Shown piece by piece: positions 41,515-54,775 of a stretch of 64,000 nt of DNA. The notes beneath the pieces were generated by a model. The model worked only from the letters and a program-made list of their open reading frames with translations, was not told where the DNA came from and ran no database searches. The DNA lies in contig NZ_BDAP01000003.1 in assembly GCF_001598915.1 (NCBI RefSeq), forward strand, positions 62,001-126,000, given 5' to 3'. The first letter of the stretch is position 1; each line of letters opens with the position of its first letter. The translations under genes and the position numbers were made by a program. This stretch comes from Williamsia muralis NBRC 105860 (GTDB lineage: Bacteria; Actinomycetota; Actinomycetes; Mycobacteriales; Mycobacteriaceae).

Positions 41515-42399
41515 GTGGTAAACACCCCCCGCAATCCTGAGGGTTCAGACCCTTACAGCGACGAGCCGTACGACAGTCGGCACGCAGACCCGGACCGTGT
41601 GGCCGACCCCGATCGGCAAGCACGTCCGTGGCGCCGGATCGACGGCACCGCCGATGTCGCACCGAAGAAGAAGGCGTCGCTGCTACGCGAGACCGCGATC
41701 ATCCTGATCTGTGTGCTCGCGCTGACGTGGGTTCTCCAGACGTTCATCGGACGGCAGTACGTGATCCCGTCCGAATCGATGGAGAACACGCTGCACGGCT
41801 GCACCGGATGCACCAACGACCGGATCGTCATCGACAAGTTGGTGTACCGGTGGAGCGACCCCGAGGCCGGCGACGTCGTGGTGTTCAAAGCACCCACGTC
41901 ATCGTGGGACCAGGGCTGGAAATCGCCGCGGTCGTCCAACACGGTCATCCGCGGCGCCCAGAACGCCATGTCGTGGTTCGGGTTCGCCCCGCCGGACGAG
42001 AACAACCTCGTCAAGCGAATCATCGCCACGGGCGGTCAGCGGGTGGAGTGCCGCAACGCGGATCGCACCGGCGTCAAGGTGAACGGTCAGCCCCTCGACG
42101 AGCCGTACATCGACCTGAAGCTTCAGGAAGAGAACGCTCAGATGCGCCCCGGCGACCTCAAAGACGATACGGGTCAGCTCAATTCGTGCTTCGGCGCAGA
42201 CTTCGGCCCGATCGACGTACCCGAGGGGTTCGTCTGGGTGATGGGCGACAACCGCGGTAATTCGGCCGACTCCCGGTATCACCAGGACGACGAATTGCGT
42301 GGCATGGTGCCCGTCGACGACATACGCGGCAAAGTCCGCTACATCATCTACCCGTTCTCGCGCATCGGCGGTGTCGACTCCGTCGACCCCCAGAAGTAG
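41515..42399 (+). CDS. lepB: signal peptidase I
   Basis: LepB removes signal peptides from secreted proteins outside the membrane. About 294 residues: a long charged cytoplasmic N-terminus, one membrane helix ([19 protein letters not shown]), the catalytic serine in [12 protein letters not shown] and the catalytic lysine in [13 protein letters not shown]; the box E motif is [18 protein letters not shown] start at 41515. It is co-directional with rplS and rnhB. Confidence 0.95.
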
Positions 42400-42406
42400 G
42401 CAACCG

Positions 42407-43081
42407 GTGGCGACCACCTGGCCACCTCGTGTGGTGATACGGCGAGCCGCCGGCTTGCGCACCCTTGAAGCAGCGCTGTACCGCAGCGGGCTCGGGCCCG
42501 TCGCCGGCGTGGACGAGGCAGGGCGCGGAGCGTGTGCCGGACCACTGGTGGTCGCTGCGTGCATCCTCAAGCCGACGCAGCTGATCTCTCTCGCCGATCT
42601 CGATGACTCGAAGAAGCTGACGGCGAAGACCCGCGACAAGTTGTACAAGTCCGTGACCCGGCACGCTGTTGCCTGGAGTGCAGTGGTCATCGACGCAGAC
42701 GAAGTCGACCGGCTGGGTATCCATGTGGTCAACATCGAGGGAATGCGGCGAGCCGTCGCCGGGCTCGGTGTCCAGCCGGGCTATGTGCTGTCGGATGGTT
42801 TCCGGGTTCCAGGGCTCACCGCGCCCTCCCTGCCGGTGATCGGAGGCGACGGCGCGGCCGCGTGTATCGCCGCCGCCAGCATCATCGCGAAGGTCACCAG
42901 GGACAGGATCATGGTCGACATGGACACGTCGTTGCCCGGATATGGGTTCGCTGTCCACAAGGGCTACAGCACCGAGATGCACATGCAGTGTCTCGACGAG
43001 CTCGGCCCGTCCCCACAACACAGGATGTCGTATCGCAATGTGCGGCTACGGGTGCGCGTGGGCGAGACCGCAGGACGTTAG
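42407..43081 (+). CDS. rnhB: ribonuclease HII
   Basis: RNase HII cleaves RNA of RNA-DNA hybrids and single ribonucleotides in DNA. About 224 residues. The catalytic segment is [15 protein letters not shown], with [16 protein letters not shown] and the later [12 protein letters not shown] and HKGYSTEMH motifs. I chose GTG 42407, just after the lepB stop; the frame extends upstream only through lepB. The next gene follows 9 bp later. Confidence 0.94.
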
Positions 43082-43090
43082 GCTGAGGGA

Positions 43091-43414
43091 ATGAGCGCCG
43101 AAGATCTCGAGAAGTACGAAACCGAGATGGAACTGTCCCTGTACCGCGAGTACAAGGACATCGTCGGTCAATTCACCTACGTGGTCGAGACAGAACGTCG
43201 GTTCTATCTGGCCAACGCGGTCGAGATGGTGCCCCGAAATGCGGACGGCGAGGTCTACTTCGAGGTCCGTATGAGTGACGCCTGGGTCTGGGACATGTAC
43301 CGCCCTGCTCGGTTCGTGAAACAGGTACGGGTGATCACGTTCAAGGACGTCAACATCGAGGAATTAGAAAAGCAGGATCTGCGTCTGCCCGAGGACGGTG
43401 TGCTCGGCGACTAG
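43091..43414 (+). CDS. DUF2469 family protein
   Basis: The 107-residue protein (MSAEDLEKYETEMELSLYRE, FTYVVETERRFYLANAV, WVWDMYRPARFVKQVRVITF) is an actinobacterial conserved protein found next to rnhB, as Rv2901c in M. tuberculosis. Function unknown. Its stop overlaps by 4 bp the stop of the convergent MFS gene; it is the last backbone gene before the glycolipid-type locus. Confidence 0.9.
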   Translation: MSAEDLEKYETEMELSLYREYKDIVGQFTYVVETERRFYLANAVEMVPRNADGEVYFEVRMSDAWVWDMYRPARFVKQVRVITFKDVNIEELEKQDLRLPEDGVLGD

Positions 43415-45117
43415 CGGGGTACGGCTTCGGTTCGTCGCAGCAGGAGGCTGATCATCGCGAGGGCAAGAGCGGTTGCCGCGATCGCCCACAAGATGATCGA
43501 CAGTGCAGCGAGAAATGAGTGCGCGGCGGCTTCCCGTGCGGCGGTCTTGAGTTCTGGTGCGGCAGCAGCGGCCACCGTGGCTCGCACATCGCCCGGTGTC
43601 GCCGGCTTCTGAGCGTCGGTTGCACCGCACCCAGGCGGGGTCTGTTCCGGATGTGCCGACGACAGCTGCAGATTCGCGCACCGAGAGAACTCATCGACCA
43701 CCACTGGCCGGAACGGGGGAGCCACCGAGGTGGTCTCCAAGCCCCGCGACAGTGAAGAGGCGGCCTGATCCACCGCCGACGGTGATTGTGCGGCAACCTG
43801 ATTGAAGAACGCGATGCTGATCACGGCTAGCCCGATCGAGCACCCGATCTGCTGGATGGTGGGAATGGAACCGGATGCCGAGCCCACATTGGATTCGGTG
43901 GTCCCGGACAAGATGGTCGCCTGCAGTGGCGCGACGAACAAACCGGTGCCCACACCGCCGATCAGCAGTGGCGTCACGAGCACCGCGATGTCCAGTGAGC
44001 CACCCGCAGGATCGATGATCATGGCGGTCCAGCCGAGACACACTGCGAACGCGACCATTCCCAGCGCCAGGGTGCGGGCACCGATGCGACCGACCAAGAT
44101 GGGGGAGATCAACGAACCCACGGCGGCACCGACCGCGAAAGGGAAGGTCAATACGCCTGTTCGAAGCGCCGAGTAGCCGAGACCGAATTGGGCTGCGATG
44201 GACACGGTGAAAAAGAACGCGGCGAAGACGCTGAAGAACGCCAGCGACAACACGGCGCCGACCGTGAAGTTCCGGTTGTGGAACAGATCGAGTCGCAGCA
44301 GGGGGCTGCCGCCGCGGCGCTGGAGTCGGCGCTCGTAGAACACGAATGCCGTCAGGAGCACGATCGAGACGACAAGCATCACGAGAAGCCATATCGGCCA
44401 GTCTTTCTCGCGCCCGAGCGCCAAGGGATAGATGAGGAGGAAGAGTCCCGCGCTCGAGAGCACCATCCCCGTCACGTCCAACGGCTCCCGTTCGCCGGGT
44501 TTGACGTCCGGCAGATAGCGAAAGGCGAGGACGCAGGCAATCATTCCTAGCGGCAGGTTGACGAGGAAAATAGTTCGCCAGCCCAGGTCGAAGATGTCGG
44601 CGGCGATGAGACCGCCCCCGAGCATGGGGCCCAGCATCGCTGCCACCCCCGCGGTGGCGCCGTACATCCCGAACACCACGCCGTGTTTGACCCGCGGGAA
44701 CAACACGGAGATGATCGCGATCGTCTGTGCCGACGCCGCCGCGGCGCTGACGCCTTGTGCGCCGCGTAGCGCAATCAACTCGGTTGCCCCGGTGGCGGTT
44801 CCGCACAGTACCGACGTCACGGTGAAGCCGGCGAGTGCAATCAGGAACACCCGGCGCCTGCCGAACATCTCACCCAGACGTGAACTCGTCATCAGGGTGC
44901 AGGCGAACGCAAGCGTGTACACCGTGGCGACGAGGAGCTGCGCCGAATAGGACGCGTCCAGGTCGGTGGCCAGACTCGGCAGTGCGATGTTGACGATGGT
45001 GGTGTCCACCATCTGCATGAACACCGCGATCAGGCAGGCTGCAAATGCCAGCCAGGCCCGCCGCGGGGCGATCTCGGCCTGTTGTGGCTGTAGCGCAACA
45101 GATTCCGGTAGAGACAC
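43411..45117 (-). CDS. DHA2-type MFS transporter, copy 1
   Basis: About 568 residues with about 14 membrane helices, the number typical of the DHA2 drug/H+ antiporter subfamily. Visible markers are IVNIALPSLATDLDAS (motif D1-like), RLGEMFGRRRVFLIAL (motif A) and GATAGVAAMLGPMLGGGLIA (motif C of exporters). A large extracellular loop near the C-terminus contains cysteines (FSRCANLQLSSAHPEQTPPG). GTG start 2 bp after the papA-like stop, so it forms a two-gene operon with it. A second paralogous pair lies 3 kb away. It probably exports the product of the acyltransferase. Confidence 0.88.
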   Translation of the reverse strand: MSLPESVALQPQQAEIAPRRAWLAFAACLIAVFMQMVDTTIVNIALPSLATDLDASYSAQLLVATVYTLAFACTLMTSSRLGEMFGRRRVFLIALAGFTVTSVLCGTATGATELIALRGAQGVSAAAASAQTIAIISVLFPRVKHGVVFGMYGATAGVAAMLGPMLGGGLIAADIFDLGWRTIFLVNLPLGMIACVLAFRYLPDVKPGEREPLDVTGMVLSSAGLFLLIYPLALGREKDWPIWLLVMLVVSIVLLTAFVFYERRLQRRGGSPLLRLDLFHNRNFTVGAVLSLAFFSVFAAFFFTVSIAAQFGLGYSALRTGVLTFPFAVGAAVGSLISPILVGRIGARTLALGMVAFAVCLGWTAMIIDPAGGSLDIAVLVTPLLIGGVGTGLFVAPLQATILSGTTESNVGSASGSIPTIQQIGCSIGLAVISIAFFNQVAAQSPSAVDQAASSLSRGLETTSVAPPFRPVVVDEFSRCANLQLSSAHPEQTPPGCGATDAQKPATPGDVRATVAAAAAPELKTAAREAAAHSFLAALSIILWAIAATALALAMISLLLRRTEAVPR

Positions 45118-45119
45118 TG

Positions 45120-46544
45120 CTATGTCGCCAGGGCCGCCACCGACGGGCTGTAGTCGCCGTGCGCAGCAATGGTGGTGAAGATCTCCGACAGCCGGTCGAC
45201 GTACAACTTGATCGAAGCGTGTGCCTCATCGGTGTCCGGGAAGAGAAGACTGATCGTCGTCGCGTCGTTGAAGCGGTTGATCCAGAGGAAGACTTCTTCT
45301 GAGCTTCCCCGGTTACCGAACAGCCCGGTGTTGATGGCGTCGAACAGGTCGACGCCCGGCAGCTTTCGGACGTCGATGTACGAGACCATCGGCACCGACC
45401 ATCCAGGGTCGACATTGACCCCGTGGTCTGGTCCGGCAAGTTGCAGCACGCGGTGGAACGAGACGTCGGTCAGCTCTTTGCCCGAGTCGTACGAGGCCTG
45501 AGCGGCTCCGACGATGGACGTGAAGGTCGAGGATTCGCCGACGGTGACCGGCACGGGGATGAGACTGGTGAACCAGCCGATCGAGCTGAACTCGGCGGGG
45601 GTGGAGCGTGTGCTCTTGGGGGTCAGGCCGAAGTAGTTCGACGCTCCGGTGAACTCATAGCTGGCCAGAGCGGCAACCGCGAGCACTCCGGGGGTGAATG
45701 CGGCGCCGTGGTCACGGCACACGGTCGCGAACTTCTCGGCATCGGCTTCGCTGAACAACGTCGTCGACAGGTGGGCGGTGCGCGCATAGCCGGCACTGGC
45801 GACGCCCAGGTCGAGTGGGAAGGTCGGGAGCCGACCCGCGTTCGAGTGGACCAGATCGATCCAGCGCTGGACGTGAGGCGACTCCAACGTCAACGCGGCA
45901 GAGCCCGCGCGTTCTCTGGCGCAATATTCGACATAACTGCCGACGTCGGCCAGACCGCTCGGTGTTCCCTGGCTCTCACTCGAATACAGCTGCAGGAGTT
46001 CGACAACGGTGAGTGCGGAGGAGATGCCGTCGGTCACCAAGTGGTCGAACGCCGCGTACAAAGTGAAACCGGTCTCGTGTTCGATGGTGCCGAATGTGAA
46101 GCAATCCCAGTTGAACGGTCCGGGAGTCTCGGTCTCGACGTGCGCGCGAATTGCGTCGGGGGAGTCGAACTCGCCGTGTGGGGTGGGTCGGAAGTCGATG
46201 ACGCTGGGGTCCACCACATGCCGAACGATCGATCCGTCGGTTTCGGATGAGAACCAGCTGTGGAAGGTGTCGTGGCGCCGGAGGAACGTGTTGATCGTCC
46301 GGGTCATGGCATCGACGTCGAGCGGAGTCTGAAAGTCGAACGCCACCAGGCACAATCGGGAGAACCGGAAGCCCACTGTCTCGTTCCGGGCGGCGGTCAG
46401 AAGATACTCTTCTTGCTGATGTGAGGCCGGGGTGGGATGCACCGGAGCGCCCTTCGCCTCATCCAGCGAGGCCGGGGACGCAACCCAGCTCGTGAGTCGG
46501 CCCGTGGCTGGTTCCCACTCGTTGATCAGACCGAAATTGACCAT
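45120..46544 (-). CDS. PapA-like acyltransferase (condensation-domain protein), copy 1
   Basis: About 474 residues. The catalytic motif HLVTDG (HxxxDG, His168, Asp172) and segments VASPASLDEAKGAPVHPTPA, LRRHDTFHSWFSS and STPAEFSSIGWFTSLIPVPV are characteristic of the polyketide-associated PapA1/2/3 acyltransferases that acylate trehalose-type lipids. No carrier domain is present. The ATG at 46544 is preceded by a ggag ribosome binding site; the frame opens 147 bp further upstream but into AT-rich intergenic DNA. Paralogous to the protein at 49799-51235. Confidence 0.85.
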   Translation of the reverse strand: MVNFGLINEWEPATGRLTSWVASPASLDEAKGAPVHPTPASHQQEEYLLTAARNETVGFRFSRLCLVAFDFQTPLDVDAMTRTINTFLRRHDTFHSWFSSETDGSIVRHVVDPSVIDFRPTPHGEFDSPDAIRAHVETETPGPFNWDCFTFGTIEHETGFTLYAAFDHLVTDGISSALTVVELLQLYSSESQGTPSGLADVGSYVEYCARERAGSAALTLESPHVQRWIDLVHSNAGRLPTFPLDLGVASAGYARTAHLSTTLFSEADAEKFATVCRDHGAAFTPGVLAVAALASYEFTGASNYFGLTPKSTRSTPAEFSSIGWFTSLIPVPVTVGESSTFTSIVGAAQASYDSGKELTDVSFHRVLQLAGPDHGVNVDPGWSVPMVSYIDVRKLPGVDLFDAINTGLFGNRGSSEEVFLWINRFNDATTISLLFPDTDEAHASIKLYVDRLSEIFTTIAAHGDYSPSVAALAT

Positions 46545-46969
46545 GTTCAGCTCCTGTCGAAGTAGCGCAAAAGCGCACTGGTGGCCGGGGCGAATGGTGA
46601 AACGCTGCAATGACTGCGAGCAGGCGGCTTTCTGTGTGCGGCAATTCGCAACACAAAATGCCAAATGCATTTCAAGTAATTTGTTCGACATCCGCGCTAC
46701 GACGTCTGAAAGACGCCTCGGCCCGACCCTTTGTCGCGTTGTCGTGCACCCGTGAAACTACAGCGAAGATTAGCGGATGACAACAGCTGTTGAGAAATAA
46801 AGATCTAACACAACAAAAAATCTTCCTTAAGATCTATGCGGGTTGTACCGTCTGCGTCCCGTGGCGCAGTGGCGCCGTGGTTGGATGTGCCAAAGTCGTG
46901 GCGGCGCCATGGGTTCTGACGTGCCCAACTGTCGGGTGAACCCTGTGTGCCGCACCAGAGAGGATTCTC
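46545..46969. promoter_or_regulatory. AT-rich divergent region between papA-like gene and mycolyltransferase gene
   Basis: No gene is supported in these 425 bp. The composition drops around 46640-46850 (stretches such as acaacaaaaaatct). A perfect 12-bp palindrome caacagctgttg lies at 46781-46792, and two agatct palindromes follow at 46801-46806 and 46831-46836 within similar flanks. It should contain the divergent promoters of both flanking transcripts. Confidence 0.45.
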
Positions 46970-48040
46970 GTGAAGTGGCACATCGGTGGTACACCTCGTC
47001 TCGCAAATCGAAATGTAGAAACCGCTGTTGTCACATTTGTGGCGGCCGTATTGGTCTTGACAGTATTCGGCCCGGGATCGGCAATTGCCGAACCTGACGG
47101 CCAACCAATTGTCGGCGACACGACATCGGCCGACGGTTCTCGGGTGGTGAACACGGTCGAACAGGTCGACGGGGTCGTGGACGTGACCGTGAGGTCGGCC
47201 GCGATGGGGGCGGACCTGATGGTCAAGGTGCTGCCGGCACAGGACCGGTCGAGTCCTGCGCCCACGATGTACCTGCTCAACGGAGCAGCTGGTGGCGACG
47301 GTGGAAGCAGCTGGTTCGATCAGACCGACATCGCATCTTTCTTCAAGGGCCGCAACGTGAATGTGGTGGTACCGATGGGTGGGGCGGCGAGTTACTTCGC
47401 GGACTGGCGCAATGACGACCCGAAACTCGGTCGCCAGAAGTGGGCCACCTATTTGACCGAGGAGCTACCGCCGCTGATGGATGCGCTCCTGAACGGCAAC
47501 GGGCGCAACGCGATCGCGGGCATCTCGATGGCCGGGACCTCGGTGTTCCAGCTGGCCCTGAAGTCCCCTGATCTGTACCGCGCCGTCGGATCGTACAGCG
47601 GTTGCGCAATGACCAGCGACCCCGAAGGCCAGGCCTACGTCCGACTGACCGTCGAGATCCGTGGCGGCGGGAACACGGTGAACATGTGGGGCCCGCCGAC
47701 CGATCCCGAGTGGGTTCGCAACGACCCGTATGTGAACGCGGAGAAGTTGCGCGGCAAAGCCATCTACATCTCGAACGGTACGGGTCTGCCCGGCCAGTAC
47801 GACGTGATCGACGGGCCCGGCATCAACGGAAACGGATCCAAGCTCGCCGAGCAGATCGCGGTCGGCGCGGTCATCGAGACGGCTACCAACCGCTGCACAC
47901 TCAAGATGCGTGACCGACTGCAGCAGTTGGGGATTCCCGCCACAGTCGATCTGCGATCAACCGGCACCCACAGCTGGGGTTACTGGCAAGACGATCTCCA
48001 CAAGTCCTGGCCGATGATCAACGCGGCCCTGACCCGATAG
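46970..48040 (+). CDS. secreted antigen-85-like mycolyltransferase/esterase
   Basis: About 356 residues from GTG 46970. Residues 1-40 form a signal peptide with a hydrophobic core and AIA just before the predicted cleavage at Glu41. The alpha/beta-hydrolase domain has the nucleophile elbow GISMAG (Ser186) and a late catalytic histidine in GTHSWGYW (His334), with NMWGPPTDPEW as in mycolyltransferases of the antigen-85/corynebacterial family. Such enzymes transfer mycolic acids between trehalose lipids and cell wall. Convergent with MFS copy 2, whose 3' end overlaps its own by 23 bp. Confidence 0.85.
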   Translation: MKWHIGGTPRLANRNVETAVVTFVAAVLVLTVFGPGSAIAEPDGQPIVGDTTSADGSRVVNTVEQVDGVVDVTVRSAAMGADLMVKVLPAQDRSSPAPTMYLLNGAAGGDGGSSWFDQTDIASFFKGRNVNVVVPMGGAASYFADWRNDDPKLGRQKWATYLTEELPPLMDALLNGNGRNAIAGISMAGTSVFQLALKSPDLYRAVGSYSGCAMTSDPEGQAYVRLTVEIRGGGNTVNMWGPPTDPEWVRNDPYVNAEKLRGKAIYISNGTGLPGQYDVIDGPGINGNGSKLAEQIAVGAVIETATNRCTLKMRDRLQQLGIPATVDLRSTGTHSWGYWQDDLHKSWPMINAALTR

Positions 48041-49802
48041 CCGGCGTCGGGGCTGACTGTGCGGCCGACTGGCGGTCGATCTGACGTCGTCGGTGGTTGC
48101 GCAGAGCGAGGGTCAATCCGGCGAGTGCCACCGAGATCGCCGCCAGGGTCCACAGAACGGCGGTGAAGGCCGCCAAGAAGGTGTGCGAGGCTGCCTGGCG
48201 GGCCGCTGCGCTGACGTCCGGTTCGGCTTGGGCTGCGACCGCGGAACGAGGCCCGTCCGCGTATGGCTGGATGGCATCATCTGCGCCGGGACACCCCGGT
48301 CCGGGGGTGTCCGGGTGTGCTGAACCCAACTGGGCAGTGGCACAGCGACCGAACTCGCGAACGACAAACGGTCGCGCGAGTGGAGCAACCTCGGACGTGC
48401 CGAGACTGTGCGACAGACTGGTCTGCGCCTCCTGCACAGCCTGTTCCGATTGCGCGACCACTGCTGCGAAGAAAAGCAGGCTGATCACCGCCATCCCCAC
48501 GGATGCTCCGATCTGCTGGACGGTGGGGATGGTCCCCGAGGCGGAACCGACAGTCCGCTCTGAGGTGTCCGAGAGCATCGTCGCCTGCAACGGCGCGACG
48601 AACAGTCCCATGGCCACGCCGCCGACGGCCAACGGGAGGATGATCGACGACACCTCGATGCCGGCGGCGGGGTCGATGATCACGGCCGTGTAGACGAGTG
48701 ACCCGCTGAACAAGACGGCTCCCGTCGTCAGCGTCAGTGCCCCGATCCTTCTGACGAGCAGCGCCGAGACAACCGAACCGACTGCGGCGCCGATGGCAAA
48801 AGGGAGGGTGAGCAGACCGGTCCGCAACGGTGAGAATCCAAGGCCGAATTGTGCGGTCACCGAGACGGTGAAGAAGAATGCGGCAAACACACCGAAGAAC
48901 AGCAGCGACAGGACTGATCCGACGGCGAACGACCTACTGGTGAACAGCTGGAGGTCCAGCAGGGGATAGCCGCCCCGTCTGCCGAGGCGGTGCTGGTGAA
49001 CGATGAAGAGGCACAGCACCACCACGGACCCCACCAGCATCCACAAATGCCAGGTCGGCCAACCCCTCTCGCGCCCCATGGCCAGTGGGAGAACGAGCAG
49101 GAACAATCCGGTCGTCGACAGCGCGACTCCCGGGAGATCGAGGCCCGGACGGGTGGTGGCATGAAGGGCCGGAAGACATCGATGGCCGACGACGCAGGCG
49201 ATCAGGCCGAGGGGGAGGTTGACGAGGAAGATCATGCGCCAGCCAAGACCCCACACGTCTGCTGAGATGAGGAGACCCCCGAGCGTCGGTCCGAGCATGG
49301 CGGCGACTCCGGCCGTCGCGCCATAGATGCCGAACACCGCTGGATGCCGGGACTTGGGGAACGAGGCCGAGATGATGGCGATGGTCTGGGCCGATGCCAG
49401 TGCCGCGCAAGCGCCCTGAACGGCTCTCAACACGATGAGTTCTGTTGCGCCGGTTGCGGTCCCGCACAGCACAGATACCACCGTGAACCCCGCGAGAGCG
49501 CCGATGAACAGTCGTCGACGGCCCCACCGTTCGCCCAGGCGAGAAGCGGTCAGAAGAAAGCACGCGAAAGCCAGTGTGTACGCGCTCAGTACAAGTAATT
49601 GCTCGCCAGACGATGCGTGGAGTCCGGACCCGAGACTGGGCAGGGCAATGTTCACGATCGTCATGTCGACCATCTGCATGGACACTGCGATGAGACAGCA
49701 GGCCAGAGCAGGCCACGATGCTCTCCGCGAAGATGCCCCCCGTGGATCTTTTGTGCAACAAGGAGTGGTGACGGGAGCAGGAAGCGGCGCTCGTGGTCTC
49801 AA
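48018..49802 (-). CDS. DHA2-type MFS transporter, copy 2
   Basis: About 594 residues and 14 predicted helices, clearly paralogous to copy 1: shared blocks include LIAVSMQMVDMTIVNIALPS, GTATGATELIVLRAVQG and YGATAGVAAMLGPTLGGLLI. The C-terminal extracellular loop again has cysteines (FGRCATAQLGSAHPDTPG). Only a TTG start (49802) is available before the conserved part; it overlaps the stop of the papA-like gene (ttga), consistent with coupling. The 3' end overlaps the convergent mycolyltransferase gene. Confidence 0.86.
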   Translation of the reverse strand: MRPRAPLPAPVTTPCCTKDPRGASSRRASWPALACCLIAVSMQMVDMTIVNIALPSLGSGLHASSGEQLLVLSAYTLAFACFLLTASRLGERWGRRRLFIGALAGFTVVSVLCGTATGATELIVLRAVQGACAALASAQTIAIISASFPKSRHPAVFGIYGATAGVAAMLGPTLGGLLISADVWGLGWRMIFLVNLPLGLIACVVGHRCLPALHATTRPGLDLPGVALSTTGLFLLVLPLAMGRERGWPTWHLWMLVGSVVVLCLFIVHQHRLGRRGGYPLLDLQLFTSRSFAVGSVLSLLFFGVFAAFFFTVSVTAQFGLGFSPLRTGLLTLPFAIGAAVGSVVSALLVRRIGALTLTTGAVLFSGSLVYTAVIIDPAAGIEVSSIILPLAVGGVAMGLFVAPLQATMLSDTSERTVGSASGTIPTVQQIGASVGMAVISLLFFAAVVAQSEQAVQEAQTSLSHSLGTSEVAPLARPFVVREFGRCATAQLGSAHPDTPGPGCPGADDAIQPYADGPRSAVAAQAEPDVSAAARQAASHTFLAAFTAVLWTLAAISVALAGLTLALRNHRRRQIDRQSAAQSAPTPAIGSGPR

Positions 49803-51235
49803 CCTGTCACCTGACGAACACCTGGGCTGGGTGCGTAGTCGCCCTCGGAGATGATCGTCTTGAAGATCTGCCGTACCCGGTCCACATAGATGTCCACCGA
49901 TGCCCGGGCCTGCGCGGTGTCAGGGAACAGCAGGCTCATGGATGTCTCATCGGCGAATCGATTGACCCACGTGTACACCTCGTCCGATGTACCGCGGTTA
50001 CCGTAGAACCTCGCGTTGATGGACTCGAACTCGGAGACGCCCGGTAGTCGACGTGCGTCCATGATCGAGACCATCGGCACCGACCATCCGGGTTCGGTCC
50101 TGACGCCGAGGTCGGGTTCATCGGAGACGAGTTCGAGCACCCGGTGGAACGAGACGTCGGACAGTTTGCGTCCGGCCAGGTAGGCAACCTGTGCTTGGCG
50201 AACCAGGGTTTTGAACGTCGACGACTCATCGATGTCGATCGGCACGGGAATCAGACTGGTGAACCAGCCGACCGCGCTGAACTCCGCAGGAGTCGTCCGT
50301 GTGCTCTTGGGCGTGATCGCCAGATAACGACCATCGCCTGTGAACTCGTGCGCAGCGAGGCCGGCGACGGTGAGTACCGCCGCGATGAACCCTGCGCGGC
50401 TGTCCCGGCAGATCCGGACCAGTGTCTTCGCGTCCTGTTCGTCGAACAATGTGACCGTCAGGTGTGCGCTCCGCGCGTTTTCTGTACTTTCCTGGCCGAG
50501 GTCCAGCGGAAAGGTCGGGAGGCGGCCACCATTGGCCTGGACGAGTTCGATCCATCGCTGCACAGGCGAGGAGTCCAGCGACAGCTGAGCCGATGCTGTT
50601 CGTTCCCGATGGCAGTAATCGATGTAGCTGCCGGGCGGAGCGAGATCGTTGTCGCGGCCGAGCCGCGCATTGTCATAGAGGGCAATGGCGTCGACAAGTG
50701 AAATCGCCTGTGAAATCGGGTCGGAGTGCAGGTGGTCGATGGCGGCATACATGGTGAACCCGCAGTCGTGTTCGATGGTGCCGAATGTGAAGCAATCCCA
50801 CTCGAATGGGCCCGGCGTCTCACGTTGTACCAGTTCCCTTATCTCGTCAGGGTCCCCGATGACATCGTGGTGATGCGGAATGAAATCGATTGTCGTGGGA
50901 TCGATGACCCGGCGGACGACGGAGTCATCGGGTTCGATGGAGAACCAACTGAGGTGAGTGTCGTGCCGCCGGAGAAAAGCGTTGACGGCGGTGGTCATGG
51001 CGGCGTGATCAAGCGTGTGATCTTGATCGAAGGTGCCGACATACAGCCGCGACGACCTGATCTGCGAGTTCTGCCGACAAGCTGCAGTCCGCAGATACTC
51101 TTCCTGTTGGTGTGAGGGTGGCGTGGGGTGGATGGGCGCCTGCTGTGCCTGTGTGATCGATGCCAGTGACGCCGACCAAATGGTCACTCTGCCAGCGGGT
51201 GGCTTCCAATCATCGATGAGACCGAAATTGACCAT
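49799..51235 (-). CDS. PapA-like acyltransferase (condensation-domain protein), copy 2
   Basis: About 478 residues, colinear with copy 1 from MVNFGLIDDWKPPAGRVTIW onward, including LRRHDTHLSWFS and STRTTPAEFSAVGWFTSL. The catalytic motif reads HLHSDP (His168, Asp172, but Pro in place of Gly173). His and Asp are the essential pair in PapA-type enzymes, so activity is still possible but altered acceptor or donor preference is likely. The ATG at 51235 aligns with copy 1. Coupled to MFS copy 2 downstream. Confidence 0.85.
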   Translation of the reverse strand: MVNFGLIDDWKPPAGRVTIWSASLASITQAQQAPIHPTPPSHQQEEYLRTAACRQNSQIRSSRLYVGTFDQDHTLDHAAMTTAVNAFLRRHDTHLSWFSIEPDDSVVRRVIDPTTIDFIPHHHDVIGDPDEIRELVQRETPGPFEWDCFTFGTIEHDCGFTMYAAIDHLHSDPISQAISLVDAIALYDNARLGRDNDLAPPGSYIDYCHRERTASAQLSLDSSPVQRWIELVQANGGRLPTFPLDLGQESTENARSAHLTVTLFDEQDAKTLVRICRDSRAGFIAAVLTVAGLAAHEFTGDGRYLAITPKSTRTTPAEFSAVGWFTSLIPVPIDIDESSTFKTLVRQAQVAYLAGRKLSDVSFHRVLELVSDEPDLGVRTEPGWSVPMVSIMDARRLPGVSEFESINARFYGNRGTSDEVYTWVNRFADETSMSLLFPDTAQARASVDIYVDRVRQIFKTIISEGDYAPSPGVRQVTG

Positions 51236-51696
51236 GTCATCTCCTGGACGTCCTGGGCCGAAAACGCGGAGGCAGTCAAAAGGCGCCGACAAATCATGCC
51301 GACTGTAGTGCTGCGTTTTTGGCTCGAGACGTCGTATTGTCCGTAATGTCTACGCCCCCGAAGACAATTCGATGTCATTGTGCTCTGAGTGCCTAACAGC
51401 GACGCGGCTCTCGTCGATGACGGTACAGATTCCCTGGTGGTCGGGCAACCGGAATGCTCAGAAACTATTGCGTGTGAACGATCCTTTTCATACAGATGCA
51501 TTTTCCAAAAGTGCGGATCTGTTCGCAATTGAACCCGTTGGGAATGTCAGGTCCGCTGCCATTCGGTCGATATTCACGATGCGTAATTGCCTATTGCATT
51601 CATGGTTTGTCCACAGTGTGTGGTTTGTGCACAGGGTGGTGGTGGTCGGCGTGTTGTGGGGTCTGTGGGTGGGTGTTGGTTTGGGATGTTTTCGGT
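51236..51696. other. 461-bp intergenic region between papA-like copy 2 and yraN
   Basis: The left part (51236-51600) is of lower GC than its surroundings and presumably holds the promoter of the minus-strand papA/MFS pair; no gene is supported. From about 51601 the composition becomes strongly G and T rich on the plus strand and continues so into yraN and comM. Confidence 0.5.
51607..51633 (+). promoter_or_regulatory. two DnaA-box-like sequences
   Basis: ttgtccaca (51607-51615) equals the actinobacterial DnaA box consensus and ttgtgcaca (51625-51633) differs at one base. They are in the same orientation with 18 bp between starts, 64 bp before the yraN ATG. This is not an origin context; a titration or regulatory site, or chance in a G/T-rich block, are alternatives. 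Confidence 0.35.
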
Positions 51697-52077
51697 ATGG
51701 ATCAGTCAGGTGGGGGTGTGCGTCGTTCGCGGCGTGAGGTGGGTCAGTTGGGGGAGGACGCCGCGGCGGAGTATCTCGTGGGTTTGGGGTGGGTCCTGGT
51801 GCAGCGGAATTGGCGTTGTCGTTATGGGGAGTTGGATGTGATCGCGGTTGATGGTGATGCGTTGGTGGTGGTGGAGGTCAAGACGCGGACCGGGTCGTTG
51901 TACGGCGATGTGGCGGAGGCGGTGACGGTGGCCAAGTATCAGCGGATGCGCCGGTTGGCTGGGGTGTGGCTGCGTGAGCAGGGGCGGCGTTGGCCGGTGG
52001 TGCGTTTTGATGTGGTTGCTGTGCAACTCGATTCGAAGGACTGTGTGTCGATTTCGCATTTGCGTGGGGTGTTCTGA
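51697..52077 (+). CDS. YraN/UPF0102 family nuclease-like protein
   Basis: About 126 residues with the PD-(D/E)xK-like pattern RRGEVGQLGEDAAAEYL-type start (here REVGQLGEDAAAEYLVGLG), RCRYGELDVIAVDGDALVVV and EVKTR. The family is related to Holliday junction resolvases, role unproven. I chose ATG 51697. The codons favour third-position T and G in contrast to nearly all other genes here, a trait shared with the first part of comM. Backbone neighbour Rv2898c-Rv2897c in M. tuberculosis. Confidence 0.88.
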   Translation: MDQSGGGVRRSRREVGQLGEDAAAEYLVGLGWVLVQRNWRCRYGELDVIAVDGDALVVVEVKTRTGSLYGDVAEAVTVAKYQRMRRLAGVWLREQGRRWPVVRFDVVAVQLDSKDCVSISHLRGVF

Positions 52078-52078
52078 G

Positions 52079-53626
52079 GTGAAGTTGGGGCGGGTGCGGT
52101 CGGTGGCGATCAATGGTGTCGAGGGTGTGGTGGTGGAGATCGAGGCGTCGATCGGTCAGGGTCTGCCGGGTGTGCATCTGGTGGGGCTGGGGGATGCGGC
52201 GTTGAAGGAGGCAAAAGATCGCGTGCGTGCGGCGATCACCAACACTGCCGCGGCGAGTAAGGGTGGGGACGAGGGCGCTGTTGCGAAGTGGCCGGAGGGT
52301 CGTATCACGTTGGCGTTGTCGCCTGCGACGTTGCCCAAGTCGGGGTCGATGTACGACTTGGCGTTGGCTTTGGCGGTGCTGGCGGCGGGGAATGATTATG
52401 CGCCTGCGTATTTGGAGAAGTCTGTGTTCTTGGGTGAGTTGGCGCTCGACGGGCGGGTTCGGCCGGTGCGTGGGGTGTTGCCTGCGGTGGTGGCGGCTCG
52501 GCAGGCGGGTTTCACTCATGCGGTTGTGCCGTTGGGCAATGTTGCCGAGGCGGGGTTGGTGTCGGGGATCGAGGTGGGTGGGGCGAGTCATCTGCGGGAG
52601 GTGCTTGCCTGGCTCAAGGGATCGTTTGTGCTGGACACGGTGGGTCCGCGGGAGCCGGTCCGGTCGGTGGTGGCGGGGCCGGATCTGTGTGATGTGGTGG
52701 GTCAGGATGAGGCGCGGTATGCGATGGAGGTTGCTGCTGCGGGGGCGCATCATCTGTTGTTGACGGGGCCGCCGGGGATTGGGAAGACGATGCTGGCGCG
52801 GCGGTTGCCGGGGATCTTGCCGCCGTTGAACGAAGCTGAGGCGTTGGAGGTCACGGCGATTCATTCGATTGCCGGTGGGTTGCCGGCTGATCATCCGTTG
52901 ATTCGTGATGCGCCGTTCATCGCTCCGCATCACTCGACGACGGTGACTGCGATGATCGGCGGTGGTACGGGGATGGCCAAACCCGGTGCGGTGTCGCGGG
53001 CGCACCGCGGCGTCCTGTTCCTCGACGAGTGCGCAGAGCTTGGTGTCAAGGTGCTCGAGACGCTGCGAACTCCGTTGGAGGACGGCGAAGTTCGAGTGGC
53101 ACGACGCGACGGGGTCGCTCGATTCCCTGCTCGCTTCCAGCTGATCCTGGCGGCCAACCCATGCCCGTGCGCTCCGGCGAACGACGTGGATTGTGTGTGC
53201 TCACCTACTGCACGTCGTCGCTATCTCGGCAAGCTGTCTGGGCCACTCATGGATCGGGTGGACATCCGGGTTCGGATGGATCCTCCCGGGACAGCGGCGC
53301 TGGCGGGCGGGCCCGCGGAATCGAGTGCTGTTGTCCGCGAGCGTGTGATGGCGGCGCGGGCCGCTGCTCGCGAACGCTGGCTGGCCCACGGGTGGCAGAC
53401 GAATGCCGAGGTGCCGGGTTCGGTACTGCGGCGGGGCGATTTTCGCTTGCCGGGTTCGGTGGTCAGGCCGATCGAACTGTTTCTGCGAGACGGGCGGGTG
53501 ACGGCACGCGGAGCCGACCGGGCACTTCGCCTGGCGTGGACGCTCGCCGATCTCTCCGGAGCTGACCAGCCGACCGAAAACCATGTGGCGCAGGCATTGA
53601 TGTTCCGCGACCGCGGATACAACTGA
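52079..53626 (+). CDS. comM: ComM-like Mg-chelatase-family AAA+ ATPase
   Basis: About 515 residues from GTG 52079. An N-terminal Lon-like domain (GVEGVVVEIEASIGQGLPG) precedes a Mg-chelatase-type ATPase with Walker A GPPGIGKTMLARRLPG, Walker B VLFLDECAEL, ILAANPCPCA and the C-terminal lid (LPGSVVRPIELFL). ComM is a branch-migration helicase that helps integrate transformed DNA in other bacteria. Codon usage changes abruptly at about 52,970: before it codons end mainly in T or G, after it in C or G like neighbouring genes. dprA follows 9 bp later. Confidence 0.93.
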   Translation: MKLGRVRSVAINGVEGVVVEIEASIGQGLPGVHLVGLGDAALKEAKDRVRAAITNTAAASKGGDEGAVAKWPEGRITLALSPATLPKSGSMYDLALALAVLAAGNDYAPAYLEKSVFLGELALDGRVRPVRGVLPAVVAARQAGFTHAVVPLGNVAEAGLVSGIEVGGASHLREVLAWLKGSFVLDTVGPREPVRSVVAGPDLCDVVGQDEARYAMEVAAAGAHHLLLTGPPGIGKTMLARRLPGILPPLNEAEALEVTAIHSIAGGLPADHPLIRDAPFIAPHHSTTVTAMIGGGTGMAKPGAVSRAHRGVLFLDECAELGVKVLETLRTPLEDGEVRVARRDGVARFPARFQLILAANPCPCAPANDVDCVCSPTARRRYLGKLSGPLMDRVDIRVRMDPPGTAALAGGPAESSAVVRERVMAARAAARERWLAHGWQTNAEVPGSVLRRGDFRLPGSVVRPIELFLRDGRVTARGADRALRLAWTLADLSGADQPTENHVAQALMFRDRGYN

Positions 53627-53635
53627 GGGGACAAC

Positions 53636-54775
53636 ATGCTCGACGACAACACACGACTCGACTGGGCATACCTCGCCGGGGTGGCCGAGCCACCGAACGC
53701 CGCTCTGCACAAGCTGATTGCGGAGGTGGGCGTGACCGAGGCGGCGCGCGCGGTGTCACGGCAGTCGGTGCCGCCCGGCCACGAAGAAGTGCTGCGGGCG
53801 ACGGCGGCTCGCCACCAGGTCAACACCGCCGAGGAAGACCTGTCCGCGATCGCCCGACTCGGTGGCAGGCTCGTGACCCCAGCCGACGACGAGTGGCCCG
53901 GCTGGCAGCTTCTCGCGCTGGGCCGGGCGGACACCGCGGCCAAAGGCGGTGAGCCCTTGGCGCTGTGGGCCCGTGGCCCGGCAAGGCTCGACGCCGCCGT
54001 CGACCGCTCGGTGGCGTTGGTCGGTTCGCGGGCGGCGTCAGGCTATGGCGAGCACGTCACGTCGTCACTCACCGGCGGTCTCGTCGGCGAACGGTGGTCG
54101 GTGATCTCCGGAGGTGCCTACGGCATCGATGGCGTGGCGCACCGGTGTGCGTTGGCCGCGGACGGGACCACGGTGGCCGTGCTCGCATGCGGACTCGACC
54201 GTGACTACCCGGCCGGTCACGCCAGGTTGATCGCCGAGATCGCTCGCACCGGAGTGGTGGTCAGCGAATACCGCCCGGGCACATCGGCGGCCAAGCATCG
54301 CTTCTTGACCCGGAACCGTCTGGTGGCGGCACTGTCGCGGGCCGTCGTCGTGGTGGAGGCAGGCGGGCGCAGCGGCGCGGCCAACACAGCCGCGTGGACT
54401 CGGAAGCTGGGGCTGCCTCTCGGTGCGGTGCCAGGACCGGTCACATCGGCGACTTCCATCGGATGCCACCGGATGATTGCCGACGGTGTGGCGCAACTGG
54501 TGACCAGTTCAGGCGACATCATCAGGCTGGCCGAGCCCGACGGTGTGACGGGTTCGGAAGCCCGCGCGTCGTCAGTGCGACCGACCGACGGCCTCGACGA
54601 AACCCAGCAACGAACCTACGACGCGGTGCCGGCGCGTGGATCACTGACCATCGGCGAAATTGCTTTTACCAGTGGACTCGACGTCCGCCAAGTGCGCTCT
54701 GCGCTGGCCGTCCTGGAAACGCGAGGCCTGCTGAGCACCAACGGATCCGGGTGGAGACTGGCCGGATCGCGGTGA
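53636..54775 (+). CDS. dprA: DNA-processing protein DprA
   Basis: DprA loads RecA on incoming single-stranded DNA. About 379 residues: N-terminal helical part (LDWAYLAGVAEPPNAALHKL), the Rossmann-like core with SVALVGSRAASGYGE, VISGGAYGIDGVAHR and FLTRNRLVAALSRAVVVVEAG, and a C-terminal winged-helix (TIGEIAFTSGLDVRQV). Together with comM it forms the recombination pair of the backbone. The stop lies 5 bp from the convergent SDR gene. Confidence 0.94.
   Translation: MLDDNTRLDWAYLAGVAEPPNAALHKLIAEVGVTEAARAVSRQSVPPGHEEVLRATAARHQVNTAEEDLSAIARLGGRLVTPADDEWPGWQLLALGRADTAAKGGEPLALWARGPARLDAAVDRSVALVGSRAASGYGEHVTSSLTGGLVGERWSVISGGAYGIDGVAHRCALAADGTTVAVLACGLDRDYPAGHARLIAEIARTGVVVSEYRPGTSAAKHRFLTRNRLVAALSRAVVVVEAGGRSGAANTAAWTRKLGLPLGAVPGPVTSATSIGCHRMIADGVAQLVTSSGDIIRLAEPDGVTGSEARASSVRPTDGLDETQQRTYDAVPARGSLTIGEIAFTSGLDVRQVRSALAVLETRGLLSTNGSGWRLAGSR

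Follow-up and report, generated by a model that had tools for sequence, protein, structure and literature searches.

In the published model for the diacyltrehaloses and polyacyltrehaloses (DAT/PAT) of Mycobacterium tuberculosis, the acyltransferase PapA3 works inside the cell, adding acyl groups to positions 2 and 3 of trehalose, the product is transported, and Chp2 then acts outside by trans-esterification, the antigen 85 (Ag85) enzymes being named as a parallel (PMC4183827). Both this pathway (PapA3/MmpL10/Chp2) and that for sulfolipid (PapA1, PapA2/MmpL8/Chp1) have, besides a PapA-type acyltransferase, an exporter of their own and an enzyme for trans-acylation (PMC4183827). A similar combination is encoded in Williamsia muralis NBRC 105860 by a locus in which two paralogous gene pairs, each consisting of a PapA-type acyltransferase and a major facilitator superfamily (MFS) protein, surround a gene for a secreted enzyme of the Ag85/Cmt type; the locus offers a candidate for every step of the DAT/PAT model. 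The locus lies within the window analysed here, a stretch of 64,000 nucleotides (genome G000, 5.54 Mb; contig C3, NZ_BDAP01000003.1, positions 62001-126000), to which all coordinates below refer unless another contig or locus is named. Unlike the DAT/PAT and sulfolipid systems, the module has MFS proteins rather than MmpL and an Ag85/Cmt-type enzyme rather than Chp, the window gave no ketosynthase match, and the module of many relatives includes an additional glucosyl-3-phosphoglycerate synthase (termed here GpgS2).

Other described systems share single components with this locus. TlsA, which is involved in making the succinoyl trehalose lipid of Rhodococcus sp. SD-74, is likewise a PapA-related acyltransferase that makes a glycolipid (PMC8396431), and it may be an orthologue of the module PapA. 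Lipid transport by an MFS protein is described for Rv1410 (PMC10576003). A glycolipid of Nocardia otitidis-caviarum has a glucosylglycerate head (PMC2581804), that is, it belongs to the product line that GpgS begins, and no genes for it were found among the literature matches listed. Nor is a PapA-MFS-Cmt or GpgS-PapA gene set described among those matches, which is a weak negative given that they comprise titles and abstract openings and that subscription journals fall mostly outside their scope.

The interpretation offered here, to which a probability of roughly one half is attached, is that the module makes and exports a single acylated glycolipid without a polyketide synthase (PKS), and that the ancestral head group of this lipid was glucosylglycerate. 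It draws upon gene content, homology, motifs, conservation, the linkage of GpgS2 and the joint presence of these genes in another family, i.e., upon sequence data throughout.

The locus and its proteins

The five genes occupy positions 43411-51292. Unit A, on the minus strand, consists of PapA1 (45120..46544, in an open frame reaching 46691; 474 residues counted from MVNFGLI) and MFS1 (43411..45117; an open frame of 568 residues), with 2 bases between the stop of the former and the start of the latter. Unit B, on the same strand, consists of PapA2 (49799..51235, in an open frame reaching 51292; 478 residues from MVNFGLI) and MFS2 (48018..49802), whose TTG start overlaps the PapA2 stop. Between the units and on the plus strand lies the Cmt-like gene (46970..48040), which is separated from the divergent PapA1 by an intergenic region (46545..46969) and which shares its last 23 bases with the 3' end of MFS2. 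A preliminary description of this DNA had recognized two minus-strand PapA-MFS units flanking a plus-strand antigen-85-like gene, and all are confirmed as open frames; the paralogy that it proposed is likewise borne out, PapA1 and PapA2 being 58% identical over 471 aligned positions and MFS1 and MFS2 63% identical over 545. The MVNFGLI block that it noted is present in both PapA proteins, where it is a possible start preceded in each case by a GGAG stretch. Its remark that no polyketide synthase is present also holds, inasmuch as a ketosynthase query gave no match at 1e-3 in the whole 64-kb window; no MMPL domain was found among the seven window proteins scanned against Pfam. Within that coverage, the PKS and MmpL that stand alongside PapA in a sulfolipid, DAT or PAT locus of the M. 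tuberculosis type were not found.

The two acyltransferases match the Pfam Condensation family (E = 9.6e-23 and 2.9e-22), and the assignment to the PapA type is supported by comparison with solved structures, among which PapA1 matches M. tuberculosis PapA2 (6aef) at 8.3e-89 and, next, a nonribosomal peptide synthetase (NRPS) domain at 6e-4. NRPS condensation domains were accordingly rejected as the closest kin, a grouping that the preliminary description had itself singled out as fatal to its glycolipid module idea. Both proteins carry the HxxxD motif, as HLVTDG in PapA1 and as HLHSDP in PapA2, where proline replaces glycine; because 6aef has HLCVDP at the aligned position, this proline alone is no mark of a dead enzyme. 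In a tree of 74 PapA rows, both group with PapA-type proteins of g29 (Mycobacterium, by guess) and apart from four further papA-like genes that are clustered elsewhere in the same genome (C6:224351-231558, locus L044). The latter cluster adjoins a biotin carboxylase gene and resembles a four-papA cluster reported in Rhodococcus sp. I2R (PMC8396431). PapA relatives of 31-32% identity are also encoded on two contigs titled as alphaproteobacterial metagenome-assembled genomes (L041, L042).

The Cmt-like protein matches PF00756 (4.1e-32), the Cmt1 structure (about 5e-71) and also Ag85 proteins; it retains a serine motif (GISMAG) and a histidine motif (THSWGYW) and has a single, N-terminal hydrophobic peak. 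It therefore combines membership of the esterase family with the serine and histidine motifs and the N-terminal export segment that characterize the Ag85/Cmt enzymes, and is predicted to be a secreted acyl- or mycolyltransferase. Its genome contains 8 further matches at 0.001, and the separation of the module Cmt proteins as a single clade from these paralogues is weak (67/39). Among 43 Cmt-type rows that were collected, 41 have the serine pattern and 33 the histidine pattern; the latter is missing in eight Gordonia rows, and both patterns are missing in two Nocardia rows (L127, L129) that are distant second matches.

Both MFS proteins match Pfam MFS_1. The preliminary description had called them 14-helix DHA2 exporters, and simple hydropathy finds 14 peaks in each. 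Both are DHA2/EmrB-like: against TIGR00711, with its curated cut-off of 230.2 bits, MFS1 scores 238.8, over it, and MFS2 214.8, under it. The best match of MFS1 among solved sequences is EfpA (1e-43); others are EmrB, a putative triacylglyceride transporter and a protein for antiseptic resistance. EfpA and the Rv1410-type triacylglyceride transporter are among the nearest solved relatives of the module MFS. The resemblance to the triacylglyceride transporter extends only to a match at 1.7e-26, and the module proteins differ from Rv1410 in that a long stretch precedes the last hydropathy peak (98 residues from the preceding peak in MFS1, including two cysteines, and 92 in MFS2), whereas Rv1410 has extended helices 11 and 12 (PMC10576003).

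This assignment invites a quite different explanation, namely that the MFS proteins export drugs or other small molecules, that the product of PapA is an acylated small molecule and not a glycolipid of the envelope, and that Cmt is linked to them by chance. Judging from the names of the matched families, DHA2 proteins often are drug exporters, and the genome carries 26 other, DHA2-like MFS matches at 1e-20, points that count against a glycolipid pathway. Nevertheless, the module proteins (18 of the 50 that were collected were used in this test) are set apart from those 26 by a single branch (SH-aLRT, i.e., Shimodaira-Hasegawa-like approximate likelihood ratio test, support 99), and their solved relatives include the putative lipid transporter; the conservation of Cmt, described next, also speaks against a chance linkage.

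Conservation of the module in relatives

Relatives were sampled as 251 genomes of the family (f1) and 298 of the order. Of the genus-level groups, g1 is taken as Williamsia, g9 as Gordonia, g18 as the Williamsia maris group and g22 as Nocardia; g6, g16 and g23 are, like g29, further groups of the same family, and f2 is another family. Of the 251 family genomes, 67 match PapA at 1e-90 or better, and a gap splits these 67: 48 have matches at 6.8e-135 or better, versus 19 (g29 and g23) with a best match of 6.3e-102. The PapA-clade genes of all 48, including the window's two, define 59 loci, to which six outgroup loci were added.

A divergent Cmt gene lies within 1.5 kb at 38 of the 59 loci, spanning six genus-level groups (g1, 7/11; g9, 11/11; g18, 7/10; g16, 1/1; g6, 7/7; g22, 5/19); a same-strand MFS gene lies within 1.5 kb at 50; and 36 have both. 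The conserved core, Cmt divergent from PapA-MFS, is therefore a real conserved module, and the retention of divergent Cmt in six groups makes the small-molecule explanation quite improbable. The preliminary description had staked its proposal upon this arrangement being present in close relatives; the Cmt/PapA-MFS core is kept there, the five-gene form being seen only in Williamsia, and neither of the two outcomes that it had named as refuting has come about. Three W. maris group genomes have an extra PapA-clade gene with no Cmt, MFS or GpgS alongside (L087, L090, L098), and in Gordonia amicalis NBRC 100051 (L038) the PapA match is split into two pieces about 9.3 kb apart.

A ketosynthase lies within 8 kb of PapA at 13 of the 59 loci, every one in Nocardia and none with an adjacent Cmt; an MFS gene lies within 1.5 kb at nine of these. 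Nocardia thus has two kinds of PapA locus, the PKS-linked loci being a second locus type for the same PapA clade. At the loci concerned (L119, L121-L132) PapA lies beside a polyketide synthase of roughly 2,140-2,350 residues, and the one gene examined at L125 is an MMPL.

The module also occurs outside the family. A PapA match at 1e-110 was found in eight of the 298 order genomes, two of which (G251 and G278; loci L212 and L213) belong to f2. Both loci have PapA-MFS, a divergent gene in the Cmt position and a GpgS beyond that gene, and G251 and G278 are the only two-GpgS genomes among the 24 of f2 that were searched (any GpgS, 18/24). The divergent gene of L213, the one of the two that was scanned, is a secretory lipase (PF03583); two g6 loci (L109, L112) have a secretory lipase next to MFS in addition to Cmt. 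The f2 PapA proteins nest inside those of g6 (SH-aLRT 99), and the f2 module GpgS sides with f1 GpgS and not with the housekeeping copies of f2; the f2 module is read as having been acquired by transfer.

The genes that border the window's locus recur as well. To its left (41515..43081, plus strand) are a signal peptidase gene (Peptidase_S26) and a second gene, presumably rnhB, which also adjoin the module in relatives from g1, g18 and g16; to its right (51496..54775, plus strand) are a UPF0102 gene and two more, which are assumed to be yraN followed by comM and dprA and which also adjoin it in g1 and g18. Seven of the nine Williamsia genomes drawn have the module; the two without PapA have the same borders, between which all that is left of it is an MFS piece in G076 and Cmt in G106. 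Seven of the eight matched window genes are 96-99% identical, and the UPF0102 gene 84%, in a record titled Kitasatospora arboriphila NRRL B-24581 (L029), which looks like a mislabelled Williamsia.

A second GpgS and the head group

When genes were predicted mechanically in the neighbourhood of the loci (1065 in all) and grouped into families, the fourth recurring family, found next to Cmt, was identified through NCBIfam as glucosyl-3-phosphoglycerate synthase. Of six examples scored against a cut-off of 262 bits, four reach 400-418, that of the W. maris group 262.5 and that of G. namibiensis 222, which fails; among solved sequences, GpgS2 matches GpgS at 5.4e-116. With matches counted at 1e-50 and at most 8 candidates scored per genome, GpgS occurs in 233 of the 251 family genomes and in two copies in 26. 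All 26 are among the 48 with a PapA-clade gene (26/48 versus 0/203 of the others; p = 1.7e-22 from a plain table, which ignores kinship), and in 24 of them PapA and the extra copy are no more than 8 kb apart. Viewed by locus, GpgS is found within 8 kb at 24 of the 59, all 24 belonging to the 38 with Cmt and none to the remaining 21. Because many relatives carry GpgS in the same unit, the ancestral head is more plausibly glucosylglycerate than trehalose: GpgS makes the phosphorylated precursor, and the ancestral product may therefore have been glucosylglycerate-headed.

Several observations weigh against this. The linkage counts ignore kinship. Neither the window nor any of the 11 Williamsia loci read has GpgS2, the window genome's single GpgS being located outside the module; GpgS2 is missing also at 2 of 11 Gordonia loci, at four of the seven Cmt-bearing W. 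maris group loci and at the single g16 locus. Two genomes, G121 and G250, have their second GpgS at a distance from PapA, and no further module gene among those queried was found there in 20 kb. Six of 28 distinct module-type GpgS proteins fail at least one of three motif patterns (DxD, GGR and HRNRP). With four f2 GpgS sequences as an outgroup, GpgS2 forms one clade in 0 of 200 bootstrap trees (two changes). And GpgS serves other pathways, such as that for methylglucose lipopolysaccharide (PMC2581804), so that the acyl acceptor may be something other than its product.

In more detail, all three motif patterns are passed by 22 of the 28; the failures are three W. maris group copies (DxD and HRNRP), G. 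namibiensis (GGR and HRNRP), N. vinacea (DxD) and G250 (HRNRP). At three loci (L100:7192-8184, L102:7162-8121 and L103:12310-13269) GpgS-like open frames that adjoin Cmt have lost the DxD and HRNRP patterns and are possibly non-catalytic or decaying. The stray copies of G121 and G250 group with the module copy of G143. A single origin of GpgS2, at first supported (99/95; 30 module rows, of which two are duplicates, versus 24), was given up once the f2 outgroup was included, whereupon the Gordonia and W. maris group module copies join f1 housekeeping copies (97/93). This placement would reflect either two separate recruitments of GpgS or an artefact of long branches, and under neither reading is the link with the module lost.

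An alternative is a trehalose lipid pathway, in which the head would be trehalose throughout, the module PapA would be orthologous to TlsA, and GpgS2 would be a neighbour with a separate role. The closest solved PapA homologue is in fact named a trehalose-2-sulfate acyltransferase; the E-values at which TlsA is reported to match the four-papA cluster (8e-70 to 8e-30; PMC8396431) imply a distance similar to that between PapA1 and the four-papA cluster of its own genome (4e-71 to 1.8e-34); and Gordonia strains are listed with trehalose lipids (PMC9009618). Against such a pathway stand the way in which GpgS copy number and position follow the module and the presence of GpgS2 with PapA-MFS in f2 too, and no trehalose gene came to notice beside the module, in a survey that included no search aimed at such genes; it is considered rather doubtful. 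As for the preliminary description, its acylated-glycolipid system is favoured by the PapA type of the acyltransferases, the separate MFS branch, the lack of a ketosynthase and the retention in relatives, while trehalose, the head of the lipids with which it drew comparison, is less indicated than glucosylglycerate as the ancestral one.

Doubling of the units and a proposed pathway

At 58-63% identity, recent tandem copying of the units can be rejected. In the PapA tree the unit B proteins of Williamsia join those of unit A as sister sets (94/92, not starred); in the MFS tree, MFS2 falls outside a group comprising the W. maris group proteins and MFS1 (SH-aLRT 92). Because the latter tree does not pair MFS2 with MFS1, the duplication may predate the genus. 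Conceivably, unit B is a leftover of this duplication without a role of its own: of the seven Williamsia genomes with the module, two (G092 and G040) have no unit B and one (G119) has it in broken form, and its acyltransferase has HLHSDP rather than HxxxDG. Yet it is open in G000, G010, G131 and G059, and M. tuberculosis PapA2 likewise has the proline. Moreover, in G059 (L085) unit A is the damaged one, with PapA1 lying across two frames and no MFS1 in the 2.6 kb of contig beyond it except for a weak 48-residue match, and unit B is whole. Either unit can be retained, as G059 keeps unit B and G119 the reverse, and a unit B devoid of function is thus unlikely. The doubling is a Williamsia elaboration in which either unit can decay.

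Under the glucosylglycerate interpretation the module would operate as follows. PapA would transfer an acyl group from acyl-CoA to a sugar head in the cytoplasm, as its homology to PapA2 and PapA3 suggests; the DHA2-type MFS protein would carry or flip the acylated glycolipid across the inner membrane, in the place of MmpL in M. tuberculosis; and the secreted Ag85/Cmt-type enzyme would trans-acylate the exported lipid outside, adding an acyl or mycolyl group. The ancestral head would be glucosylglycerate supplied, as the linkage suggests, by the dedicated GpgS2 of many relatives' modules. Williamsia modules lack GpgS2, so that their head could be glucosylglycerate or trehalose: either the housekeeping GpgS supplies it or the acceptor has changed. 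Unit B, as an old paralogue, would probably handle another position, another acyl chain or another intermediate. As regards the Nocardia otitidis-caviarum glycolipid, Pommier and Michel reportedly described a 2,3-diacyl glucosyl-glyceric acid, a kind of lipid to which the ancestral product may have belonged. Set beside this, PapA3 acylates the 2 and 3 positions of trehalose (PMC4183827).

A broader proposal, put forward tentatively and at less than even odds, is that GpgS2, PapA, MFS and an extracytoplasmic acyltransferase (Cmt or a secreted lipase) are the genes for the orphan glucosylglycerate glycolipids of nocardioform bacteria, a counterpart of the mycobacterial acyltrehalose systems that would be free of both PKS and MmpL and mobile between families, and in which Williamsia would have lost the head enzyme and doubled the acylation and export arm. 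More generally, the module is a variant within the PapA glycolipid pathways, of which the glucosylglycerate link is the part most worth following, and the second GpgS suggests itself as a genomic marker that may predict the lipid. If the proposal is correct, then genes would be assigned to a class of envelope glycolipids known by its chemistry, MFS proteins could be said to replace MmpL in PapA pathways, and environmental organisms would offer a small, PKS-free system in which to study the acylation of glycolipids, their export and their finishing outside the cell.

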